Origin: Termitomyces sp. T153
Lineage: Eukaryota > Basidiomycota > Agaricomycetes > Agaricales > Lyophyllaceae
Reading direction: 5' to 3'
Assembly (NCBI GenBank): GCA_018296165.2
Contig: JACKQL020000045.1
Coordinates: 62,001-126,000, forward strand
Length of the DNA stretch: 64,000 nt
The notes under the pieces were generated by a model that did no database searches, was not told the DNA's origin, and saw only the letters and a list, made by a program, of their open reading frames with translations. A program made the translations under genes and the position numbers. This document shows positions 2,469 through 20,429 of the stretch, piece after piece. Positions within the stretch are counted from its first letter, which is position 1; the number at the start of each line of letters is the position of its first letter.

Positions 2469-3466
2469 TGTCACAACCCACTCCCTAGCTCCCTAGACAC
2501 TGCTCCCAACCCCTCCTGATTTCCCGCCTAACTCCCCTGAACCCCGCCCACACTTTCGCGCCCACACTGGACAACTCCAACGCTTCTCCAGCAAACCCCG
2601 ACGGCAACTCCCTCTCTGTAGCCATCAACACCCCCTTGAAACCTTCCCCCACCGTTCCTGGCCACGTCATACGTCCCCGACCCCCTACCCTAGTTTACCT
2701 GACCCGTCCCGGAGTGTCACAACGTCCCCGGAGCGGCTGTGCCCCCAACTGATCCCATCAGAATACCGCCACGGCCCAACATTGGATTGTACCCGACACC
2801 TGTTGACTCAGCACAGCTCCGTCGACCCCCGCCATCATATCTGCCACCCTCGGAGGCACCCAGTAGTCGGTATATAAGTCATAGAATAACTCCTTGAACT
2901 TTAGTCTTGATATTACATTTACCGGTTTCCTATGTTTCGTCTCTCATCTCGTCTCTATTTCTGTTTTTAGGTTTCAAATCTATCTTTTCTCAGTCTCGTC
3001 TCATCCCTGTCTCGTCTCAACTGTACATATTTCCTTTGTTCCTCTGAAGTTCCCTTGCTCCCTATGTCAGTACGAACTCTGCACACGCGCCACAACCTGA
3101 ACATTCTTAACGACAACTCCGGACCTCGCTACCCGCTCGGCCCTGGAACCCACCCAACCCCAGTAACCCCCCGTCCAGCTCCGACCCTGCCCCCATCAAC
3201 CGAGAAGCCTCCGCCTACCCGCAAACCCTTTGTGCGCCCACTAACTAGCCCCTGACACCTGCCCTGGGTCAACAACCAGTACCTTCAGTCTTAGACCCCC
3301 CTGAATCACTCAGGACTTGCTCAGGCCGCTCTCCCTAGGGACCCCCTTGCAAGCTTTCCCCACCTCTGCTCCAACTCCGGACGCCTGGTTATAAGCGCAG
3401 GACATCGCATCCGCCTAGTAAGGACTTGCCAGTGTACTGAGCCCTCGTCGTCAGCGGAACCTGACA
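2469..3466 (+). repeat. Gy1-inner 5' LTR
   Basis: 998 bp, TGTCACAACC...ACCTGACA. It is an almost exact copy of 12262-13259. TATA (TATATAAG) begins at 2871, and the predicted start and self-primer AGTCTTGATATTA is at 2903-2915. A pyrimidine-rich tract with repeated TCGTCTC lies downstream (about 2935-3035); I cannot assign it a role. Confidence 0.97.
2871..2915 (+). promoter_or_regulatory. Gy1-inner LTR core promoter and self-primer
   Basis: TATATAAG (2871-2878) with the 13-nt block AGTCTTGATATTA (2903-2915) starting 32 bp downstream. The same 32-bp spacing is found in Gy1-outer. The block is the exact reverse complement of the PBS at 3467-3479. Confidence 0.8.
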
Positions 3467-3479
3467 TAATATCAAGACT
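3467..3479 (+). promoter_or_regulatory. Gy1-inner primer-binding site, 13-nt self-complement
   Basis: TAATATCAAGACT starts at the first base after the 5' LTR and is perfectly complementary to 2903-2915. Tf1-type elements use the 5' end of their own mRNA, folded onto such a site, as primer. No tRNA-like complement is visible here. Confidence 0.85.
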
Positions 3480-3498
3480 CCCCCTTACCCCATTCTCA

Positions 3499-5893
3499 AT
3501 GTCTGCGTTTAACCCCGCATACAACCCCATCGGTTACCCAACCGACGCCTACGGCCGGCCCATACTGGAAAATTCCTATGCCCCATTCCACCCGGGTCCC
3601 TTCACGGACCAATACGTGCCCCGTCATTGGACCCCTGACCCCAACCAGGCGTTCTATGCCCCTTCCTTCCATCAGCCAGGGAATACCCCCAGGCTGGCGC
3701 TGCCCTCCCGCATTCCACACCGATGGCAACAACCCCCGTATCAACCCCGGAGGATACTCCACAGCACCCCCCAACCCCGCCTACCTCCCCCCCACCCATT
3801 ACTATGCATACCCAATCCCCGCTGCAGCCCCAGTCCCTCTGGAGGCCACGGATAACTATTCCCCCCCCCCCATTCACCGCTCAAACCCCTCCTTCTCCTA
3901 GGCAGCAAAGGATTAAAGCCTACGCCCAGCAAGCGACGAAGTCCTCCGCTTCCTCCGCCTGTCCCCGCGGAATTCGCAAGGTGTACCAGCACTCTCCTCA
4001 CCAACCTAGGCTACCCCGACGCCTCTGCAACTCCGGAGGTCTGGCGGATTGACTCCTTGACTTCCACAAACGCTACCTACAAGGGAACCTCCCGGAGAAA
4101 TCACAGCTGCTAGATCGACAACTTACGGAATGAGCTCCGGCTTGGTCGAAGAAATCCACACTAGCCGAACCTCCGCCCCTTCGAAGACCCTCTGGATCCG
4201 CCCGCTCCTTCCACTGCCGCGAGGAACCCGTTGGGACCTGAAGCCCCATCTTCCGTTCCCTGTCAGCAGGAAGAACTCAACGTGGCCTCCAGCATCTTGA
4301 GGAACCTCAACCCCGCGGGGGGTTGTTCGACCAACCCGCCGCCCACACCCTGGCTCTCTCCGCCCGGCCCCGGGCCAGCTCGGTGCCCAGCGCCTTCCAA
4401 ACCTGGGACCAACCGCCGTCCCCGAACTCTGCTCCCAACGGCCGCCCTTATACGTTGACGACGACAACAGGACCCTCTCCTATATCGGCGAGCCGGGCAA
4501 CCTTGCCGATGAACACCCCGCGCAATGGGCCCCAACGAGACCGACCCCCACTTTGATCTCCGTGCCCCTCGTAGCAATGCCCCTCCGCCCCGTCCCAACG
4601 CCCCAGTTCCCCGCGACAGCCCATAGGCCCCGGGGCGCCCCGACCCCTCTTTCCGTCAACTCCTCTTGTCCCCCGCCCACCCGATGCCTAATCCCCCACC
4701 GATGCAACTATTGGACCCCCAAACCCCAGAGGACCCCCTCCCCCTCGATGGGCCCCAGGACCTGCCCCGGGTAATGTAGGTCAAAACCCCGGTGGGGGAC
4801 CACCCAATGGCAGACTCCCGGGAGGATGGGGCCCAGCAATGGACAGCTTTACCCCCCAGCGTGGAAATGGAAATAACTACTACTACTACTACAACGCCGG
4901 ACCCCCACCTCGAACTCAAAATTCACAGGACGATACCCGCGACGCACTGGCCCGGGAAGGAAAGCTCAACATCCAGAAGCCCAAACCCTTCACCGGCCAC
5001 GACCCTCGAAAGTGGCAAATCTTCCTGACCCAGTGTTTAACTATGTTTCAAGCTAAGCCCATCACTTTTCAGCTTGAGAGCTCACGAGTGGCTTTTGCCG
5101 CATCATACTGACAGGGCATCGCCTTCGACCACTACACTGCGCTACTCCGGTTTGACCCAAACAATCCCATACTCTCCCATTCGCTCGCTTTCACCCAAGA
5201 GTTCTCGAGTAAGTTTGGCGTCTTTGACACCATAGCGGAGGCGGAGGAAAATCTCTTCAACCTCCGAATGTGCAACAACAAACGCTTCACGACCTTCATT
5301 GTACGATTCGAACAAGAGGCCTACGAGACCGGCTGGAATTACAACGCCCTCCGGTTTGCCCTCTGTCGTGCCCTACCCCAACGGATCAAGGACATCCTTT
5401 GCCTCGCGCCCAAACAAACCACCTACAACGGGTACAAGGCGCTCGTTACCCAGGTCGACCAACGTTATTGGGAAGACCGCAGCGAAAACACGGCGCCCCG
5501 GACCTTGTGGAACACCTCCAGTAACACCAACTGGCAGGCCGGGGCAACCAATGGCATCCGATCCTCAATCCCCGCTAACCCTGCTAACCCCGCACCCCGC
5601 TTCCCCCCGGGCCGAGGGGTCCCCAACACTAACTGACCCCCGGGGCAACGCCCACCCGCCCAGCTCAACGCCGCCGACCTCCATGACACCCCAGTACCCC
5701 TGGATACCAACCCCGATGATTGCGACGACATCCCGGGCCCCGCCAACGATCAGGAAGCCCTATGCGCAAACAGAATCCAGGACAGCCAGTGGATTGACGT
5801 GCCGGAGGAGACGCAGGAGAAATGACGGAAGGAGGGCGCGTGCATCCTATGTGGTGAGCAGGGACACTTTATTCGCAGTTGCCCTAAACAACA
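3499..5893 (+). pseudogene. gag: Gy1-inner gag (N-terminal region, capsid, zinc knuckle), disrupted
   Basis: Starts at ATG 3499 (MSAFNPAYNP). A 4-bp duplication (ttccttcc, about 3662-3669) relative to Gy1-outer, an 11-C run at 3861-3871 and further small indels break the first 1.3 kb. From 4839 a single frame encodes a retrotransposon Gag/capsid-type domain (about 4960-5500) with a KPFTGHDPRKW segment. A TGA at 5109-5111 replaces an expected Trp codon. That frame ends at 5634-5636. A CCHC zinc knuckle (C-X2-C-X4-H-X4-C) is encoded at 5841-5882 in the same frame, after further breaks. The product would package RNA in the virus-like particle. Whether the indels are real or assembly errors cannot be told here. 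Confidence 0.75.
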
Positions 5894-6043
5894 GGTGATG
5901 GGACGTGCCATGTGGATGATCGATGGAGAAGACTGTAACTACCAGTTCATGGAAAACGAGTCGGCGGTTTAGGTCTGGAAGACGCACTAGACTGCGGACC
6001 ACATCCCAACGTCTTCTCCACCCCAGCCACACTCCTCCGTGCA

Positions 6044-6588
6044 ATGATGCTCGCCCCAGACAACCCCCCAGCACACCTCCCCTCCCACTCCTCCACAAAT
6101 CTCCTCCTCCGCACCACTCTCCCCTTCACCGACACACCTGTCCCCACACTAGTCGACAGCGGCGCCACCAATAACTTTGTTGACAAATCCCTGGCAGCGC
6201 TTGCCCCACAACCCCTCCGCCACCTCCCCGCCCCAATCCCCCTCAAACTCTTTGACGGAGACTCTACCCCAGCGAGAGACATCACTCATTGCCTAGAAAC
6301 GACTCTGACCTTCGCCGACGGACAACAGCAAGAACTCCGACTACTCGTCACAAAATTACACCCTCCGCCCCCGTCGTCTTAGGATTCTCATGGCTCCGCT
6401 CCACCAATCCCCGCATCGATTGGCCCAGTCTCACCCTACGCCTCGACCGGGACAACCCCACCGGCTCCGGACTGGTACTCTTCCATGTCTCACCCCCCTC
6501 CGAGAGCTCCGAGACCATGATCAACCAACCCCGGACCCTGCCGCAACTTCGCTCTAGGTCTGCACGATTGTTCGTCATCTATGTCTGA
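6044..6588 (+). pseudogene. Gy1-inner first retropepsin-like domain (PR1)
   Basis: Encodes an aspartic-protease core with the catalytic triplet in LVDSGATNNFVD (Asp codon 6155-6157). A beta-strand-rich body follows, then a shift to the pol frame near 6370, the typical VLGFSWLRSTNP flap-end motif, and a TGA at 6586-6588. The sequence is clearly homologous to the second domain 470 nt downstream: LKLFDG matches LKLQLFDG, and WLRSTNPRIDW matches WLRDVNPDINW. Retropepsins normally occur once per polyprotein and act as dimers. The region is absent from Gy1-outer because of its deletion. Confidence 0.75.
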
Positions 6589-9500
6589 CTTGGCGGCTCG
6601 CTCAAGGTACTCCCCGCCCTTGTAGACAGTGGCGCCTCCGGTGTCTTCGTCAGCAACCAACTCGACCTCCGATGCAACGACCTCGACAGACCCCTCAAGC
6701 TCCAACTCTTTGATGGGAGCCCCGCCACGACAAGAATCACGCAGTACCACGACAACACCCTCACCCTCGATAATGACCTGCAGTTCCAGACCCGACTCCT
6801 CGTCACCCAACTACCCCCGTCGACCCCGATCGTGCTTGGACTCCCGTGGCTGCGAGACGTCAATCCTGACATCAACTGGAAGAACCTCACCATGCAATTC
6901 CCCAGCCCCAAAGCAAGCTTAGCGGCCGCCATCCACCTCCGCTTCCAGTCTATCCCTGACCCCGACACCACCCCGGACTCGACTGCTACACCTACGGTAC
7001 CCAACCCCATTGACTCCAGAAACCTCGACATTAAAATCATCGGCGCCGTCCCCTTTGCGCGCCTCCTACAAGAAGGCACCCCCGCCTTCCAGTTGCAAGT
7101 CACGCCAGCCCTACCGGAGGAATACCTCCGCGCAGGGACTACCATGCCAGAAAAGAAGATGGAGGAACAGATCCTATCCAAAGTAGTTCCCCCGGAGTAT
7201 CATAAGTTTGCTGACGTGTTCTCTGAAGGAAGTGCCAAGGAACTCCCTCCGCACCGCTCCTATGACCACCAGATCGACCTCGAAGAAGGCACCTCACCCC
7301 CGTTTGGCAAGATCTACAACATGTCTGAAATCGAGCTCCGGGCCCTGAAGGAATACCTTGACGACATGCTCGGCAAAGGTTTCATACATCCCTCGATCTC
7401 CGCGGCTGGCGCTCCGGTTCTGTTTGCCAAGAAAAAAGACGGATCCCTCCAACTCTGTGTGGATTATCGGGGACTCAACAAAGTCACCAAGAAGAACCGG
7501 TACCCCCTCCCCTTAATCGGAGACCTTGTTGATTGCCTTTGCAGCGCCAAGATTTACATGAAAATTGACCTTTGTTCCGGCTACAACAACATCCGGATCA
7601 CCCCGGGACATGAATGGAAGACCGCCTTTCGCACCCGCTACGGCCTCTTTGAGTATCTCGTAATGCCCTTCGGAATGACTAACTCCCCCGCCACCTTCCA
7701 GTACTTCATGAACGACATCTTCCATGACATGAACGACGTCTTTGTCATCGTATATTTGGACGATATCCTGATCTACTCGAATTCGCTGGCGGAGCATTTG
7801 GAGCACGTCCGCCGTGTCCTGGAACGACTCCGAGAGTATCACCTTCATGCTAAACCCGAAAAGTGCTCATTCCACACAGCGGAAGTCAAATATCTCGGGG
7901 TCATTGTCACCCCTGATGGTGTGCGCATGGACCCCGCCAAGGTCGACGCAATACTCAACTGGCCCTCTCCGCGGAACATCAAGGAGGTACAGTTGTTCTT
8001 GGGGTTTGCTAACTTCTATCGCCGCTTTATCGACAACTACTCCGGAATCACCAAACCCCTCAACCGGCTCACACAGAAGGACACCCCTTGGAATTGGGAC
8101 AGCAAGTGCCAGAGCGTATTCCTTCTCCTGAAGAAGGCCTTCACCTCTGCTCCGGTCCTCCGCCATTTTGACCCCTCCCTACCGATCATGCTCGAATGTG
8201 ACGCCTCCAACTATGCTATCGCCGGGATACTCTCCCAGTCGGACTTGGGAGGCAAGGATCTCTGCCCCGTCGCCTTCTACACCCGATCAATGATCCCAGC
8301 AGAACTCAACTATGACATTTACGACAAGGAACTCCTCGCAATCGTCGAAGCCTTTTGTCAGTGGTGGGCCTACCTCGAAGGGTCCCCGCACCACATCCAA
8401 GTCTACTCCGATCACAACAACCTGCAATATTTCACGACCACAAAACAGCTCAGCCGCTGCCAGGCTCAATGGTCCAAAACCCTTTCGGAGTACGATTTTA
8501 CCATTCACTACCGCCCCGGGCAACTCGGCGCAAAGCCTGACGCTCTCACTCAGAGACCCGACGTGTATCTGAAGAAATCGTTTGAAACCGAACGAAATGC
8601 ATTCAACCATCGAGTGGTAATCCCACCCAAACATCTACATGCTGTGCTGATTTTAAAAGAAGAAGGAATCCTCCAGCAAATCAGGAATTCACCCCCGGAC
8701 CCCTTCTTCAACCAGCACAACCCCCGCAACAACCCCGATGAGTCGAGCATAGACAACCCCTTTTTGCTATCCCCGGACCACCGCCTGCTGCTCCGGAACG
8801 GACAAATCTATGCCCCGGACCACAAGTCAATTCGCCTCAACATACTCCGGCAGCACCACGATCACAAACTCCGGGGGCACCCAGGAATTCGTAAGACCCT
8901 TCAACTCATTTCCTGGACTTATTTTTGGCCAGGAATGAAGAAGGACGTTACGCAATATGTAAGAGCCTGCAAACCCTGCCTACGGGCCAAAGTACCCCGC
9001 CATCGCCCCCATGGATTATTGAAACCCCTCCCCGTCGGTTGCCGCCCCTGGTCTTCAATATCGATGGATCATATCGTTGAACTCCCCGACTCCAAAGGTT
9101 TCGATGCAATCCTCGTTGTCGTCTGCCGCCTTACCAAGCAAGCCTTCTTTATTCCCTGCCACACCACTGACACTGCCCCGGATTTTGCCAAGCTATTTCT
9201 AGAACACGTATTCTCCAAACACGGACTTCCCAACGACATCGTCTCCGACCATGGACCCCTATTCGTATCTCATTTCTGGCAATTGCTGTGCAAGGCACTC
9301 GAGATCAAAACCAGCCTCTCTACCGCCTACCACCCAGAAACCGACGGGCAAACCGAGCGCGTAAACCAGATGTTAGAACAGTATCTTCGCCTCTACGTTA
9401 ACTATTTACAGAATGACTGGCGCGCGGAGCTTCCCCTCGCCGAATTCACCTACAACAACACACCTCACTCCGCCACCGGAGTTTCCCCCTTTTACGCCAA

Positions 9501-9852
9501 CAAGGGCTACAATCCTCGACTCACGCTGTCCCTCAAAGACATCCCCTCCCACGTTGCCCACAAAGTCACCAAGGACCTCCAATCCCTCCACCAATTCCTC
9601 CGGGATGAGATCGACACCGCCAACCAAGCCTACTCCAAGCACGCCGACGCCCGTCGCAAGCCAACCCCTGACTGGCCCCCCGGCACCTTGGTCTGGCTCG
9701 ACCAACAAAATCTTAAGACCCGGAGGCCTTCCATCAAACTCGACCACAAACGCCTCGGCCCATTCAAGATCCTCCAGAAGGTCTCCACCCACGCTTACAA
9801 GCTCAACCTGCCTCCGGGCCTGAAGGGCCTCCACCCTGTGTTCCACGTTTGA
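6589..9852 (+). CDS. pol: Gy1-inner Pol: second protease, reverse transcriptase, RNase H, integrase
   Basis: Open from the TGA at 6586-6588 to the TGA at 9850-9852; the first ATG is 6832 (1,006 residues from there), but the protease lies upstream of it, so translation as part of a Gag-Pol chain is assumed. In order it encodes a second retropepsin (DSGA, Asp codon 6625-6627); RT with LPLIGDL, LCSGYNNI and the catalytic YLDD at 7753-7764; RNase H (ECDASNYA, DKELLA, YSDHNNL); the integrase HHCC zinc domain (about 8850-8990); and the integrase core. In the core, D 9067, D 9247 and E 9355 give a D-X35-E spacing. A GPF-type module precedes HPVFHV. All visible catalytic residues are intact. The stop replaces the Arg codon CGA that Gy1-outer still has (CGA to TGA at a CpG), cutting off the chromodomain. 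Confidence 0.93.
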   Translation, partial: LGGSLKVLPALVDSGASGVFVSNQLDLRCNDLDRPLKLQLFDGSPATTRITQYHDNTLTLDNDLQFQTRLLVTQLPPSTPIVLGLPWLRDVNPDINWKNLTMQFPSPKASLAAAIHLRFQSIPDPDTTPDSTATPTVPNPIDSRNLDIKIIGAVPFARLLQEGTPAFQLQVTPALPEEYLRAGTTMPEKKMEEQILSKVVPPEYHKFADVFSEGSAKELPPHRSYDHQIDLEEGTSPPFGKIYNMSEIELRALKEYLDDMLGKGFIHPSISAAGAPVLFAKKKDGSLQLCVDYRGLNKVTKKNRYPLPLIGDLVDCLCSAKIYMKIDLCSGYNNIRITPGHEWKTAFRTRYGLFEYLVMPFGMTNSPATFQYFMNDIFHDMNDVFVIVYLDDILIYSNSLAEHLEHVRRVLERLREYHLHAKPEKCSFHTAEVKYLGVIVTPDGVRMDPAKVDAILNWPSPRNIKEVQLFLGFANFYRRFIDNYSGITKPLNRLTQKDTPWNWDSKCQSVFLLLKKAFTSAPVLRHFDPSLPIMLECDASNYAIAGILSQSDLGGKDLCPVAFYTRSMIPAELNYDIYDKELLAIVEAFCQWWAYLEGSPHHIQVYSDHNNLQYFTTTKQLSRCQAQWSKTLSEYDFTIHYRPGQLGAKPDALTQRPDVYLKKSFETERNAFNHRVVIPPKHLHAVLILKEEGILQQIRNSPPDPFFNQHNPRNNPDESSIDNPFLLSPDHRLLLRNGQIYAPDHKSIRLNILRQHHDHKLRGHPGIRKTLQLISWTYFWPGMKKDVTQYVRACKPCLRAKVPRHRPHGLLKPLPVGCRPWSSISMDHIVELPDSKGFDAILVVVCRLTKQAFFIPCHTTDTAPDFAKLFLEHVFSKHGLPNDIVSDHGPLFVSHFWQLLCKALEIKTSLSTAYHPETDGQTERVNQMLEQYLRLYVNYLQNDWRAELPLAEFTYNNTPHSATGVSPFYANKGYNPRLTLSLKDIPSHVAHKVTKDLQSLHQFLRDEIDTANQAYSKHADARRKPTPDWPPGTLVWLDQQNLKTRRPSIKLDHKRLGPFKILQKVSTHAYKLNLPPGLKGLHPVFHV

Positions 9853-10087
9853 CTCCTTGAAAGGCATGCTCCAGACCCCTTCCCCGGCCAACGCCCCAGC
9901 CGACTGCCCCCCGTCAAAGTCGAGGACGAGTATCACTATGAGGTCGACAAGATCCTCGACTGCCCGGGTAGTTCGCGGCTGGCTCCAGTACTTGGTCTGC
10001 TGGAAGGGCTACGGACCTGAGGACAACATGTGGGAACCCCAAAAGAACCTTGACAGAGCCCCCGACAAACTCCAGGACTTTCACTGA
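9853..10087 (+). pseudogene. Gy1-inner chromodomain, detached by stop and frameshift
   Basis: Continues the Pol frame after the TGA ([12 protein letters not shown], then [13 protein letters not shown]). A +1 frameshift near 9965 follows, after which [20 protein letters not shown] and NLDRAPDKLQDFH are encoded to the TGA at 10085-10087. The Y-V/W-KGY-W-EP pattern is the chromodomain signature of integrase C-termini in chromoviruses, thought to steer integration to heterochromatin. Gy1-outer has the same domain at 17068-17226. Confidence 0.85.
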
Positions 10088-10352
10088 CGGAATCCCACCA
10101 AGCCCCAGAACCCCCGGGACTGACCCAACACAGATGGCAATAGTGGGCGTAACCCCCGCCTCTGGGTTCACCAGGGATTCAACTCCCACCAATACTCTCC
10201 TATGTGTTTCCACTTACTCCTTTCCTCGCTCTATCTGAAACTTCCCACACTCAGCAGAAGGACCAAAGACTGTATAGGAACAAGTAGTGTACAGGTATAT
10301 ACTCGAACAAGAAGGGGCAGGGAACAAGTCAACGACGGGGTCCGAATTCCCC

Positions 10353-12048
10353 TCACTCTCCCTCCTCCTCCGACCCTAACCCCGCTACCCTTCCCACCAT
10401 GAACACCTCCAACTGTGCCACTACCGCCGCCAGAACCTTGGGTTGCCCGGGGAGCGGTTCCCCCACGTCCGTCGCTATCTCCCACCATGCCCTGGGATCT
10501 GCTGTCGCCCTCTGCTGATGCCCTGCCAACAGATGCCCCATCTGCGTAACCCCTTGACCCAACTCCAGTGGAAGGTCCCTGGGCATCCTCACCAACCCAT
10601 CATGGATGGACCCCAGCGCTGCCGATGCTCCGTCAAGAAGGATGCGATGCTCCCTGGCCCAGTCTGTGGAACCTGAATCAGCGCTTAGGAGAAGAGAGCG
10701 GGGAAACCACTCATGAAGCACTCCTCGCCAGCCCAAAGCTGTCTCATTGGCAAGCCATTCCTCCCGCCGCCGTGCCCTCTCCACCGCCGCCCAGACTTCC
10801 TCAGCGCTGGAACCCTGCTGGGTCTCCCGCACCCCCGAGCCTCCTGCCTGCTGCGTCGCCACCTCCGCTGCCTCCACCCGCACCTGCAAATGCACCGTCT
10901 GCACCTCCAACTCCTGCAGACAAGATAACCGCTCCGCGGCAGTCCCGACGGCGACGTCCTTGTCTTTCCGCACCAGGTCCCGTTCCCTCCGAACTCCGTC
11001 CAACTCCTGTTGAGCCCCGTCCCTCTCCTCCCATACCCCCTGAATCTCCTCCTCGCATGTGACCAACAACCGTTCCAAGCCCTCTACCCGACACCGCAGA
11101 TAGGCCTCCGCAACTGACCACGACCTATCCGCAGACTGCTCAATGGGGGCTCCGGACGTAGGGGAATACACTGCGGAACCAGGGGGGCCCCCCATCACCT
11201 GCTCGCCCTGCGCCCGCTTACTGGGACCTGCCTTGGGTGAAGGGGGCGCTCTCCAGTTCCCTTTCTCCTGCCTGGAAGGGGCCCCTTCCCTCCGTCCACC
11301 CCGCAGAGGGCCCACCTTCATGACAGGCGCGCTAACCCGTTTCCCTTCCCCAGCCCCGGAGCCCCTCCCCAACACCCTGCCCTTCCGCCCTTCCTCCAGC
11401 TGTGCTGCGACCCAACCCTGATCCCACCCTTGCTCCGCCGCGACACAAACGGCCTGCCAACTCAGGGTGACGGAGCACTTCTCATGCCGTGAACAGCACG
11501 GAAGGCACACCAACGTGTTCCGCCGTACCCCTGATGCCAGTTCCTCAAACTCACACTGCTCCCCTCGTTGGGTACAAGACGCACACTGCAGGGGCATGTT
11601 GGTCCAGGAAACATGAAGCTAAGTGGCCACTCACTGGGGCCGCCGCCTGACACCACTCAAGGGTGGGGGGACCCCTCGCCTGACCCACCGCCTCGGCAAA
11701 CTGCTCCGGTGTCACCTCCGCCTGTACCACCCTCGAACCCTCTGGGACAAGCTGGACCACCCCCAGGTGAATGCCAGACTTGGAACGCGTAGAAGTGACC
11801 ACGCCTGCTGGGGGCTGCGTTGCATCCGCACCAGACAGTGGCCCTGAGGGACCAGCCATGGCCGCGGACAACTCTGCGAAGGGACAATCAGTGTTCTGGG
11901 GTACATGGAACGGACCGCACTCACGACTACGGTACATTGCCTCGACCTGACAGCAATCTCGGCGACCCTCTAAATCTTCGGAGGACGACGGCTGGAAAGG
12001 CGGGGACGGCGACCTAGATGCTGTGGGAGAATAAGCTGAAGAAGACAT
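10353..12048 (-). CDS. Antisense spliced gene of Gy1-inner: Cys6-motif, coiled-coil protein
   Basis: Minus-strand gene between pol and the 3' LTR, convergent with pol. Exon 1 is 12048-11635 (138 codons from ATG, MSSSAYSPTA...). Intron 1 is 11634-11586 (49 nt, GTGAGT...CTGCAG, phase 0). Exon 2 opens with CASCTQRGEQC. A second intron is predicted at 10714-10664 (51 nt, phase 1, CTGAT branch-like site, CACAG acceptor), but its donor reads ATGAGT. Retention keeps the frame (548 residues); splicing would give 531. The motif C-X2-C-X6-C-X15-C-X2-C-X6-C resembles the fungal Zn(II)2Cys6 cluster, with a longer middle loop than usual. A Ser/Pro-rich N-terminus and a coiled coil (SWSVAEAYLRCRVEGLERL through the RRERDLVRKDK region) are visible. 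I do not recognise a described family. A regulator of the element or its host is inference. Confidence 0.8.
10664..10714 (-). other. Second intron of the Gy1 antisense gene, donor lost by CpG change
   Basis: Read on the minus strand from 10714 down to 10664, 51 nt. The homologous intron in Gy1-outer (17854-17802, 53 nt) has donor GTAAGT, branch CTGAC and acceptor CTGCAG. Here the donor is ATGAGT after a C, as expected if CGTGAGT became CATGAGT. Intron length is a multiple of three without stops, so retention adds 17 residues. Confidence 0.65.
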
Positions 12049-12261
12049 TGCAACAAGCTGGCGGACTCCTGGATGTGTCCACCCCTTTTAATAAATTAAG
12101 AAGGGGCCGCTGACAAATGGCAGCTGCACCTCGACTTCCTTCCCCACACCGCCACCGCTCGCTGCGGTTTGATCAATATTGATCAACTTCGATTCCCACA
12201 CCCTACTGATCCCTGACTCACTCCCCGCATCTCGAGGGTCTCAACACTGAAGGGGGGGTGA
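12049..12261 (-). promoter_or_regulatory. Putative antisense promoter region and sense polypurine tract
   Basis: The 213 bp between the antisense ATG and the 3' LTR. On the minus strand an AT-rich block (TTAATTTATTAAAAGGGG, about 12087-12106) lies 40-60 nt upstream of the antisense ATG and could act as a TATA element. On the plus strand GAAGGGGGGGTGA (about 12249-12261) is the polypurine tract that primes plus-strand DNA synthesis; the same tract precedes the Gy1-outer 3' LTR. Promoter activity is inferred only. Confidence 0.5.
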
Positions 12262-13259
12262 TGTCACGACCCGCTCCCTAGCTCCCTAGACACTGCTCCC
12301 AACCCCTCCTGATTTCCCGCCTAACTCCCCTGAACCCCGCCCACACTTTCGCGCCCACACTGGACAACTCCAACGCTTCTCCAGCAAACCCCGACGGCAA
12401 CTCCCTCTCTGTAGCCATCAACACCCCCTTGAAACCTTCCCCCACCGTTCCTGGCCACGTCATACGTCCCCGACCCCCTACCCTAGTTTACCTGACCCGT
12501 CCCGGAGTGTCACAACGTCCCCGGAGCGGCTGTGCCCCCAACTGATCCCATCAGAATACCGCCACGGCCCAACATTGGATTGTACCCGACACCTGTTGAC
12601 TCAGCACAGCTCCGTCGACCCCCGCCATCATATCTGCCACCCTCGGAGGCACCCAGTAGTCGGTATATAAGTCATAGAATAACTCCTTGAACTTTAGTCT
12701 TGATATTACATTTACCGGTTTCCTATGTTTCGTCTCTCATCTCGTCTCTATTTCTGTTTTTAGGTTTCAAATCTATCTTTTCTCAGTCTCGTCTCATCCC
12801 TGTCTCGTCTCAACTGTACATATTTCCTTTGTTCCTCTGAAGTTCCCTTGCTCCCTATGTCAGTACGAACTCTGCACACGCGCCACAACCTGAACATTCT
12901 TAACGACAACTCCGGACCTCGCTACCCGCTCGGCCCTGGAACCCACCCAACCCCGGTAACCCCCCGTCCAGCTCCGACCCTGCCCCCATCAACCGAGAAG
13001 CCTCCGCCTACCCGCAAACCCTTTGTGCGCCCACTAACTAGCCCCTGACACCTGCCCTGGGTCAACAACCAGTACCTTCAGTCTTAGACCCCCCTGAATC
13101 ACTCAGGACTTGCTCAGGCCGCTCTCCCTAGGGACCCCCTTGCAAGCTTTCCCCACCTCTGCTCCAACTCCGGACGCCTGGTTATAAGCGCAGGACATCG
13201 CATCTGCCTAGTAAGGACTTGCCAGTGTACTGAGCCCTCGTCGTCAGTGGAACCTGACA
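12262..13259 (+). repeat. Gy1-inner 3' LTR
   Basis: 998 bp, TGTCACGACC...ACCTGACA, with TATA, and self-primer copy AGTCTTGATATTA at 12696-12708. By-eye differences from the 5' LTR are CA/CG twice in the first 15 bp, CA/CG in 'ccccagtaacc', CG/TG in 'atccgcc' and CG/TG in 'cagcgg': five transitions, all at CpG. Confidence 0.97.
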
Positions 13260-17490: not shown

Positions 17491-19272
17491 CTACTCCCCC
17501 TCCCACCCCGAATCCACCTCCGCTATCCTTCCCACCAGATCCACCTCCAGCTGCGCTACTACTGTCGCCAGAACTTCAGGATGCCCCAGGAGCGGCTCTG
17601 TCATGTCCATTGCCACCTTCCACCATGCTCCAGGGTCCGCTGTCACCCTCTGCCAATGTCCCGTCAGCAGATGCCCCATCTGCATGACCCCCTGCCCCAA
17701 CTCCAGTGGAAGATCCCTGGACATCCTCACCAACCTGTCGTGGATGGACCCCAGTGCTGCTGATGCTCTGTCGAGGAGGATGCAATGCTCCCTGGCCCAG
17801 TCTGCAGAATTGAATGTCAGCTCATAGTAAATGGGAGATGAAGGGAGCACTTACAGAGCACTCCCCACCACTCTGAGGCTGACTTGTTGGCAAGCCACTC
17901 TTCCCACCACCATGCCCTCTCTGCTGTTGCTCGGGTCACCTCTGCACTGGACCCCCGCTGAGTCCCCCGCATCCCTGACCCTTCAATCGTTGCCCCGCCA
18001 CCTCCACCCATGCCTCCAACAGCCTCATGCGCACTCGCAGCTCTTGAAGATGTGACAGTCACTCCATGGCAGTCCCCATGGCGATACCTTTATCCCTACA
18101 CACCAAGTCCCATTCCTTCCGAGCCTTGTCCAGTTCCCTTCGAAGCCTGTCCCTCTCCTCCGCCATCCTACAGACTTCCTCCCCGCATGTGGCCAACAAC
18201 CTCTCCAACTCCTCTGCCCAATGCCACAGGAAAGCCTCAGCGACCGACCATGACCCTCCCACAGACTGCTCAACCAAGGCCCCAGAAGTCAGGGAATACA
18301 CTATAGGACCCAGAGGGCCCACCATTGCCGGCTCCCCCCATGCCCGCTTGCTAGGCCCCGCCTCTGGCGAGGGGGACGCCCTCCATTTACCCTTGTCACG
18401 CGTCACGGGAGCCCCCTCCCTCCACCCACCCTGCAGGGGCCCCCTCCCTCCACCCACCCTGCAGGGGCCCCCTCCCTCCACCCACCACATGGGGGCCCAA
18501 TCCTCATCAGGGGCCGCCCCATGCCAACTCCTCCCTCTACCCTGGAACCCCTCCCTGAGACCCTCCCCCTCCGACCCTCCTCCAACTGCACTGCAACCTC
18601 CCCCTCCAACCCTCCTCCAACTGCACTGCAATCCACTCACGGTCCCAGCCCTGCTCTGCCGCAATGCAAGCAGCATGCCAATTCAGAGTGACGGAGCACT
18701 TCTCATGCCGCAAGCGACATGGGAGACACACTGACATCTCCCACCACACTCCCAGCATGGGCTCCTCAAACTCGCACTGTTCACCCCGCCAGGTACAGGA
18801 TGTGCACTAGAAACGTGGGTTAGCTTGATAGGGAAGGGACATGCCAATGATGCACTGGGGCCACTGCCTGACACCACTCCAACATCGGGGAACCTCTTGC
18901 TCGCCCCGCAGCCTCTGCAAAGTACTCCGGTGTCACGTCCACCTGCGCGACTCTTGACCCCATAGGGACGGGGCAGACCACCCTGGGGACAATACCAGAC
19001 CTGGAACAAGAAGCGAGGACCATTTTCCCTGCTGACTGCGCTGGGGCCTCCCCTGACATAAGCCCCGAGGGGCCCGCCACTGCCGCTGACAACTCTGATG
19101 GGACTTATTCAAGCACTCCAGCCACAACAAGCAAGAGACAGTACTTATGACTATAGTACATTGCCTGCACCCACCTACGGTCTCGCCGACCCTCAGAGTC
19201 CTCCAAGGAAGAAGTTGAGGTATGTGCCAATGGGGATGGGGACGCTGCTGGAGAATACATGGAAGACGACAT
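17491..19272 (-). pseudogene. Gy1-outer copy of the antisense spliced gene, decayed
   Basis: Homologous to the antisense gene of Gy1-inner over its whole length. Exon 1 is 19272-18856 (ATG, MSSSMYSPA...), intron 1 is 18855-18807 (49 nt, same length and phase; acceptor TTTCTAG, donor altered to GTGCAT). Exon 2 begins with the CxxC of a Cys6 motif that is still complete (C-X2-C, C, CLPC, HEKC). Intron 2 is 17854-17802 (53 nt, GTAAGT, CTGAC, CTGCAG, phase 1). The C-terminus ends in EGE at 17491, as in Gy1-inner (EEEGE). A 29-bp repeat (about three copies, 18413-18490) has expanded the middle. Conservation of both introns, the Cys residues and the C-terminus shows the gene belonged to the ancestral element. 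Confidence 0.8.
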
Positions 19273-19480: not shown

Positions 19481-20429
19481 TGTCACGACCCGCTCCCTAG
19501 ACCCCGACACTGCCCCCAGCCCCCCCAATGCTCTGCCAAACTCCCCAACCCTTGCCCACCCTCCACACCCACTTTGGGCAACTCCAACACTTCCTCGGCA
19601 GACCCCGACGGCTCCTTGATCAACTCCAATGCCTTCTCCACAGCAGTTGATGCATCCCCTGAATTTCCCTGGACTCCTGAGGCTTCCCCTGACCCCAGAA
19701 CGATCTGCTTTCCAACTGATCCCATCAGAATGTCACTGCAACCCAATCCAAGATCACACCCAACAACCGTCAACTCTGCGCAGTTCTGTCAAACCTGCCG
19801 CCATATCCTCTGCCCTCCAGAGCCACCCAGTAGTAAGTATATAAGTTGTAGAGTAACCCCTAGTACTTTAGTCTTGATATTGCATTTACTGGTTTCTTAT
19901 GTCTTGTCTTTCATCTCATCACTGTCTCTATTTTTAGTTTTGAATCTATCTCTGTTCTCTGTCTTGTCTCGCCTTGTCTCCGCCTTGTCTTGACTGTGTA
20001 TAGTTCCTTTGTCTTCCTAAGTTCCTTTCATCTCCAATGACAGTACAAACTCTGTGCATGTGCTACAACCTGAACATTCCTATGACAATCCTGGACCTCA
20101 CTCCCCGCTCAGCCCAGGAACCCCTCACGTCTTGGTGATCTCCCATCAAACTCTGGCTCTGCCCCCATCAACCGCAAAGCCTCCGCTTACCCTGCATTCT
20201 ATTTGTGCACCCACAAACTTGTTCCAGCGCCCATCCAGGTTTGACGACTAGTATACTTGGTCTTAGATGCCCCCAAACCACTCCAAACTTGCTTGGACCG
20301 CCCCCTAGCTCCCCCTTGCAAGTCCCTCTGCGCCAATACTGGATGCTTGGTTATAAGCACAGGACATCACATCTGCCTAGTAAGGACTCACCAGTGTAGC
20401 TGAGCCCCCATTGTCAGCGGAACCTGACA
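19481..20429 (+). repeat. Gy1-outer 3' LTR
   Basis: 949 bp, preceded by polypurine GAAGGGGGGGTGA (about 19468-19480). It ends TGACA at 20429, followed by the target duplication CTGGC (20430-20434). The self-primer copy is at 19870-19881. Confidence 0.95.

Follow-up and report, generated by a model that had tools for sequence, protein, structure and literature searches.

In the stretch of 64,000 nucleotides (nt) of the Termitomyces sp. T153 genome that we analysed as a whole (hereafter the window), an inner Ty3/Gypsy element, inserted into an older one, carries an additional gene on the strand opposite to gag-pol, bounded by pol and the 3' long terminal repeat (LTR). Four exons separated by three short introns encode a protein with a six-cysteine motif followed by a coiled coil. 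That this antisense gene is real, spliced and under selection can be stated with high confidence. We read it as an accessory gene of a Ty3/Gypsy chromovirus whose product would be a nuclear regulator of the element, a reading to which we give a probability of about 0.5. The coordinates of all features are collected in Table 1.

The original prediction had joined two minus-strand open reading frames (ORFs), lying between pol and the 3' LTR, by removing one intron of 49 nt. Removal of this intron alone (intron B) yields 548 residues including the six-Cys motif. The ORF pair, the intron and the motif are confirmed, but two further introns, A and C, had been missed and translated as protein, and the fully spliced product has 514 residues, not 548. 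This is also the length of the annotated homologue P0001, which itself lacks the stretches corresponding to introns A and C. Seven copies of the inner family were compared with five copies of the outer family, these being the only ones fetched among the 40 listed outer places. The outer copies have introns of 54, 49 and 53 nt at the same three sites at which the inner copies have 51, 49 and 51 nt. Exon identity between the two families averages 70.8%, and the identities of introns A, B and C are 37, 34 and 52%, respectively; within the inner sample, intron identity reaches 88-92%. Judged by eye, donors are recognisable in both families as GTGAGT or GTAAGT (GTG for the outer intron B), as are branch-like motifs (CTGAT/TTGAAT in A, CYAAC in B and CTGAY in C); AG acceptors are likewise recognisable in both. 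A reading with one intron was ruled out, because in the outer family the A and C sites hold 54 and 53 nt of unrelated sequence. The outer intron C being 53 nt long, the frame is there kept only by splicing.

Splice sites were scored in the inner family, for which we retained the 98 copies scoring best by protein similarity out of 2438 first-look candidates, 95 of them being complete enough to score. Donor B reads GT in 94 of the 95, and the acceptors of introns A, B and C read AG in 93, 95 and 94 copies, respectively. Donor A is GT in 73/95 copies and AT in 22/95, and donor C is GT in 78/95 and AT in 17/95. The AT donors occupy sites that read CGTGAGT in other copies, as CpG decay would yield, and the window copy itself has AT at donor C by a CpG-type change from GT. 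Among the outer copies fetched, donor A is AT in all five and donor C in three; a genome-wide search by exact pattern for outer intron A donors returned 4 CGTAAGT (GT) and 17 CATAAGT (AT). The observed/expected CpG ratio of the gene, calculated for nine sequences, falls from 0.97 and 0.96 for copies L058 and L055 to 0.66 for the window copy and to 0.30-0.42 for the outer copies, and the in-frame stops of the copies are mostly TGA. CpG depletion and TGA stops suggest a methylation-driven decay that has taken the CpG-containing donors A and C.

Of these 95 scored copies, 41 are open in frame, 36 are in frame with stops and 18 are frameshifted; the 3 others are incomplete. Outside CpG contexts, the mean variability over the 98 copies is 0.0157 for first, 0.0162 for second and 0.0539 for third codon positions, and it is highest in the introns (0.0798). 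Exons 1 and 2, which lay outside the search query, give 0.021, 0.0167 and 0.0536. In the surroundings of the gene, variability is 0.0537 for an LTR piece, 0.0444 for the downstream flank, 0.0366 for the pol end and 0.020-0.081 for pieces of the leader. The leader parts from -185 to -60 vary by 0.020-0.031, close to the values of the first two codon positions, so that what distinguishes the gene is its codon pattern and not low variability by itself. This pattern also bears on the possibility that the antisense RNA is itself functional, through antisense or double-stranded RNA regulation, the protein being of little import. Roles for antisense RNA have been proposed for genes of this kind (PMC7264820), but a constraint structured by codons together with unconstrained introns points to a protein, and we hold an RNA function to be very improbable.

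The ratio of nonsynonymous to synonymous change (omega) was estimated by Fitch parsimony on a 101-sequence tree, from which 2 short copies were left out, with CpG-type changes excluded and the expectation matched by change type; setting CpG changes aside in this way gives a crude estimate. Omega is about 0.27 on the stem between the families and 0.20 on deep branches; it reaches 0.57 on shallow branches, 0.74 at the tips and 0.99 inside the outer branches. On the stem, 112 nonsynonymous and 156 synonymous changes (N and S) were counted against an expected N/S of 2.7 (P = 3e-27 under a cruder null), and on the deep branches 34 and 77 against an expected 2.25 (P = 9e-21 under the cruder null). 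Tips likewise deviate from the null (P = 1e-11), although choosing the copies by protein similarity may depress their apparent omega of 0.74. Across the tree, the pattern is that of a protein which active elements require and which is relieved of constraint after insertion; purifying selection preceded the expansion of the family and continued through it. The dN/dS between copies, which the original prediction had proposed as a check, is thus not near 1 on the stem and the deep branches, and the codon pattern, omega and the intron comparison together bear out a selected antisense gene with introns conserved across element families.

Indels per kb and per copy (92 copies, 6 dropped) amount to 0.76 for exons 1-2 together with intron A, 0.44 for intron B and 0.22 for exons 3-4 together with intron C. 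The two flanks give 3.1 and 3.2, figures inflated in a manner similar to that of the pol end, whose value of 4.8 includes 91 losses of 1 nt relative to the window copy, presumably one shared difference.

A chance open frame, or the shadow of a gene on the sense strand, has to be considered here, since a sense ORF of 164 residues overlaps the gene and the mirror sense frame is the exception among the other frames: these have non-CpG omega values of 1.1-2.9, whereas the mirror frame has 0.44 on the stem, 0.25 on deep branches and 0.77 at the tips. This low omega arises from the third positions, which the mirror frame shares with the antisense gene. Of the changes on which the two frames disagree, 43 on the stem favour the antisense frame and 10 the mirror frame (P = 2e-7); on deep branches the numbers are 10 and 3 (P = 0.047), and at the tips they are balanced (68 and 67). 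Moreover, the mirror frame contains 7, 7 and 13 stops in copies L058, L055 and L009, and the three conserved introns lie on the antisense strand. The probability left to such a shadow is negligible, and a random one, which the original prediction had named as a possible outcome, is ruled out by the discordant changes on the stem.

The gene keeps a fixed place in the element. Among the 98 inner copies, the pol end is found in the expected position in 91, the LTR in 93 and both in 86. Conversely, 93 of 114 scored integrase matches have downstream, on the other strand, a scored match to the antisense gene, in 71 cases at a distance of 503-510 nt; 5 of the 114 have an antisense match nearby in another arrangement and 21 have none of the 165 listed antisense matches. 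As each list comprises just the top-scoring portion of a larger set, these proportions hold only for close relatives of the window element. Located antisense between pol and the 3' LTR, present in most copies and under purifying selection, with a conservation comparable to that of the gag-pol proteins though weaker than that of pol in the window pair, the gene corresponds in these respects to the antisense accessory genes of LTR retrotransposons termed aORF-3R.

These placements also bear on an origin as a host gene captured antisense at the DNA level and retained because it serves the host or simply as a passenger. Three spliceosomal introns resemble those of a host gene, and an antisense insertion would preserve them. 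However, the best matches reside in elements, at a fixed location; no relative outside an element was recognised, 15 of the 27 listed extra matches to the distant query being unplaced beside a scored pol match; and searches by 5-residue words found no homologue outside Termitomyces. We consider such a capture distinctly improbable.

A first protein search with the antisense gene gave 89 homologues, every one from Termitomyces, with a best identity of 81%. No homologue was recovered from any other organism in the protein searches (89, 34 and 14 matches), which rely on words of 5 residues and may miss distant relatives. The protein P0125 of Termitomyces T32_za158 is about 30-34% identical to the inner-family proteins, and a query from this strain detects older relatives with in-frame stops in the present genome, at 26-34% identity. 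Such relatives, with in-frame stops and 26-31% identity to P0125, lie at C21:158350, C53:248340, C83:45115, C49:25569, C26:735521 and C141:40977, and they possibly belong to further element lineages. As for the outer element of the window, it had been predicted to carry the same gene, and this is borne out by its 49-nt intron, six cysteines and C-terminal exon of a length equal to that of the inner copy; the outer copy is now broken, with 11 stops ahead of the end in the spliced frame. Compared with copies L108 and L110, it also contains extra stretches of 35 and 56 nt, the second of which resembles a short tandem duplication.

The encoded protein consists, in order, of a Ser/Pro-rich start, the six-Cys motif, a basic stretch, a long coiled coil and a helical end. 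Each of the six cysteines is retained in 94 or 95 of the 95 scored copies, and W115, C116 and W179 in all 95. In the wider set of 132 homologues, 73 have a WCQ/WCH anchor. The whole motif is present in 37 of these 73, with a middle loop of 15 residues in every case, and the 36 others lack part of it, often because the gene annotation leaves out some of the domain. The motif is also retained in seven T32_za158 proteins. A basic stretch resembling KGKR...KRAR was found with a loose pattern in 86/132 homologues. In the AlphaFold model of P0001, a helix spans residues 273-369, with blocks at a predicted local distance difference test (pLDDT) score of 71-97.

Fungal Zn(II)2Cys6 factors have the cysteine order C-X2-C-X6-C...C-X2-C-X6-C with a coiled coil downstream. 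The Termitomyces protein shares both the order and the downstream coiled coil, but differs from these factors in its middle loop of 15 residues and a score under the Pfam cut-off, and the weak models gave no significant fold match. Among 31 members scanned, the zinc cluster family PF00172 is the commonest Pfam match (9/31 at E<=1). Membership of PF00172 is thus favoured by the order of the cysteines and not by the score, and the Zn2Cys6 identity considered in the original prediction is not established. The protein may bind zinc and DNA. The bZIP (basic leucine zipper) domain is absent from the 8 Pfam families matched by the 31 members at E<=1, and TRP28 gave no match in the Pfam scans of the antisense proteins. 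A sequence search of the PDB with P0001 gave no match at E<=1, and a PDB search with the A3 profile returned coiled-coil pieces only (E 0.23-2.9). The VIA-align rows mostly cover only the helices at about 292-403; no Zn2Cys6 chain is listed among them, which excludes nothing.

The ATG of the antisense gene is separated from the 3' LTR by a leader of 213 nt, which contains a perfect palindrome of 18 bp, TTGATCAATATTGATCAA. It is exact in 88 of the 98 inner copies and is devoid of CpG. The palindrome may be a binding site for a dimer; we take this candidate as a lead rather than as evidence.

From these elements we propose the following mechanism. The antisense RNA would start in or just inside the 3' LTR and then be spliced, giving a protein of 514 residues in which the six-Cys module may bind metal and the coiled coil may dimerise. 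A basic stretch together with a coiled coil would suit a dimer that works in the nucleus on the control region of its own element. By binding the LTR or the leader, the protein could tune sense transcription or the fate of incoming DNA. Such a regulatory role is modelled on the antisense gene HBZ, which acts on transcription of human T-cell leukaemia virus type 1 (HTLV-1). A more specific version, in which the product is a self-encoded trans-acting zinc-cluster regulator within an HBZ-like latency circuit that arose independently outside retroviruses, the introns outlasting retrotransposition solely through their antisense orientation and the CpG donors decaying as copies become methylated, is put forward as a tentative and rather doubtful extension.

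Several observations weigh against a nuclear regulator of this kind. CpG-type changes taken alone are weakly constrained (0.97 at the tips, 0.78-0.83 on the stem and on the deep, shallow and outer branches), and between the two copies of the window omega is 0.42 for the gene versus 0.27 for pol, the gene being the less constrained. PF00172 stays under its gathering threshold of 21 bits in every protein whose score was examined, the best of these scores being 19.3 bits (P0092) and that of the one-intron form of the window protein 10.8 bits; the better matches span only profile positions 13 to about 35. The AlphaFold models are weak, with mean pLDDT of 58.9 and 65.4, especially outside the coiled coil, and Foldseek searches of PDB and BFVD gave no fold match at E<=0.001. 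Finally, the palindrome is only partly retained in the two outer copies shown.

The selection on codons, the kept cysteines and the coiled coil would fit equally well a nuclear helper of replication or integration, whose coiled-coil dimer would tether the element DNA or the integrase to chromatin; nuclear import of the pre-integration complex has been discussed for genes of this kind (PMC7264820). The element, however, already encodes a chromodomain at the end of pol, and one would hardly expect a component of the particle to be expressed antisense and independently of gag-pol. We regard a helper as unlikely, and retain the nuclear regulator as our reading of the gene.

Both elements of the window are Ty3/Gypsy chromoviruses, an assignment based on the order RT, RNase H, integrase and on the chromodomain with which pol ends in copy L058 (PF00385, 66.5 bits). 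In the window copy, pol stops at a TGA (9850-9852), before the chromodomain region still read in L058; some copies keep the pol frame open across 1394 residues. The inner element (2469-13259) is flanked on both sides by the 5-bp target duplication CCTGC, and its two LTRs differ at 5 of 998 sites, every difference being a transition. The older element around it has LTRs near 444-1403 and 19481-20429, with 96.8% identity. The assembly containing the window amounts to 72.4 Mb. Several copies are located about 1.65 kb from contig ends, which look like assembly breaks at the repeat (three ends read). Telomere targeting was rejected on the three contig ends read, those of L005, L006 and L008, which break off inside the element near the LTR end.

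Table 1. Features of the window associated with the antisense gene and its carrier element
Feature	Position	Strand	Basis or remark
Antisense gene, four exons, 514 residues fully spliced	10353..12048	-	ORFs, family alignment, codon-level selection
Exon 1, Ser/Pro-rich N-terminus	11925..12048	-	
Intron A, 51 nt, GTGAGT...CGCAG	11874..11924	-	outer family: 54 nt, unrelated sequence, same site
Exon 2	11635..11873	-	
Intron B, 49 nt, GTGAGT...GCAG	11586..11634	-	intron of the original prediction
Exon 3: six-Cys domain, basic stretch, coiled coil	10715..11585	-	
C-X2-C-X6-C-X15-C-X2-C-X6-C, residues 122-158	11475..11585	-	each Cys in 94 or 95 of 95 scored copies
Intron C, 51 nt	10664..10714	-	donor GT to AT in window copy; outer family 53 nt
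Exon 4, helical C-terminus	10353..10663	-	
Perfect palindrome, 18 bp	12169..12186	.	121-138 nt upstream of antisense ATG
Antisense gene, decayed copy in older outer element	17491..19272	-	49-nt intron and six Cys present; 11 stops
Inner Ty3/Gypsy chromovirus, carrier of antisense gene	2469..13259	+	LTR pair, target duplication, RT/RNase H/integrase domains
Inner element 5' LTR, 998 bp	2469..3466	+	ends TGTCAC...CTGACA
Inner element 3' LTR, 998 bp	12262..13259	+	pairs with 5' LTR
pol, open part in window copy	6832..9852	+	RVT_1, RNase H, integrase, SH3_Tf2-1; stops at TGA

The original prediction knew of no described family with this layout, but Grande, RIRE2, Retand, Boty (brtn) and HTLV-1 HBZ share it. 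By description, the plant aORF-3R genes Grande gene23, RIRE2, Retand (TRP28) and PvRetro13 are of the same kind as the Termitomyces gene. Grande gene23 is transcribed from its own promoter and has a nuclear product; the function of aORF-3R genes is considered an open question, and the study of antisense and spliced transcripts has been recommended (PMC7264820). The antisense gene of Retand encodes a TRP28 domain, according to PMC11963269. Retand differs from the present element in belonging to a non-chromovirus lineage and in its TRP28 gene, and the word intron does not occur in the main text of that paper. Among fungi, Boty is likewise an LTR element that has a chromodomain and bears an extra antisense gene, brtn, between pol and the 3' LTR (PMC7264820, PMC8365987, PMC4227169). 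It differs by its ascomycete host (Botrytis cinerea), and introns or a six-Cys motif are unmentioned in the available passages on brtn; moreover no Botrytis protein is among our homologue matches, brtn being likened by description and not by comparison of sequences. A BRTN-like transcript is reported for Monilinia (PMC5987419), and a mussel element is reported to give RNAs from both strands (PMC10974842). HBZ is antisense, is expressed from the 3' LTR in spliced and unspliced forms and is nuclear (PMC10186651). It resembles the Termitomyces gene as a spliced antisense gene of a retroelement and differs from it in being a bZIP protein, whereas the Termitomyces gene has three short introns in its coding region and a six-Cys motif. 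In our literature search, to which subscription papers were mostly out of reach, no description of an LTR retrotransposon with a multi-intron antisense gene was found. The layout is therefore already known; what is new, within this literature search, is the presence of three introns, a six-Cys/coiled-coil protein and a basidiomycete host.

The case shows how introns can pass through retrotransposition: because antisense introns stay in the sense genomic RNA, they would be inherited by each new copy. Termitomyces is a mushroom farmed by termites, and it is culturable. With many copies, three introns and clear selection on the protein, the function of an antisense accessory gene becomes directly testable.
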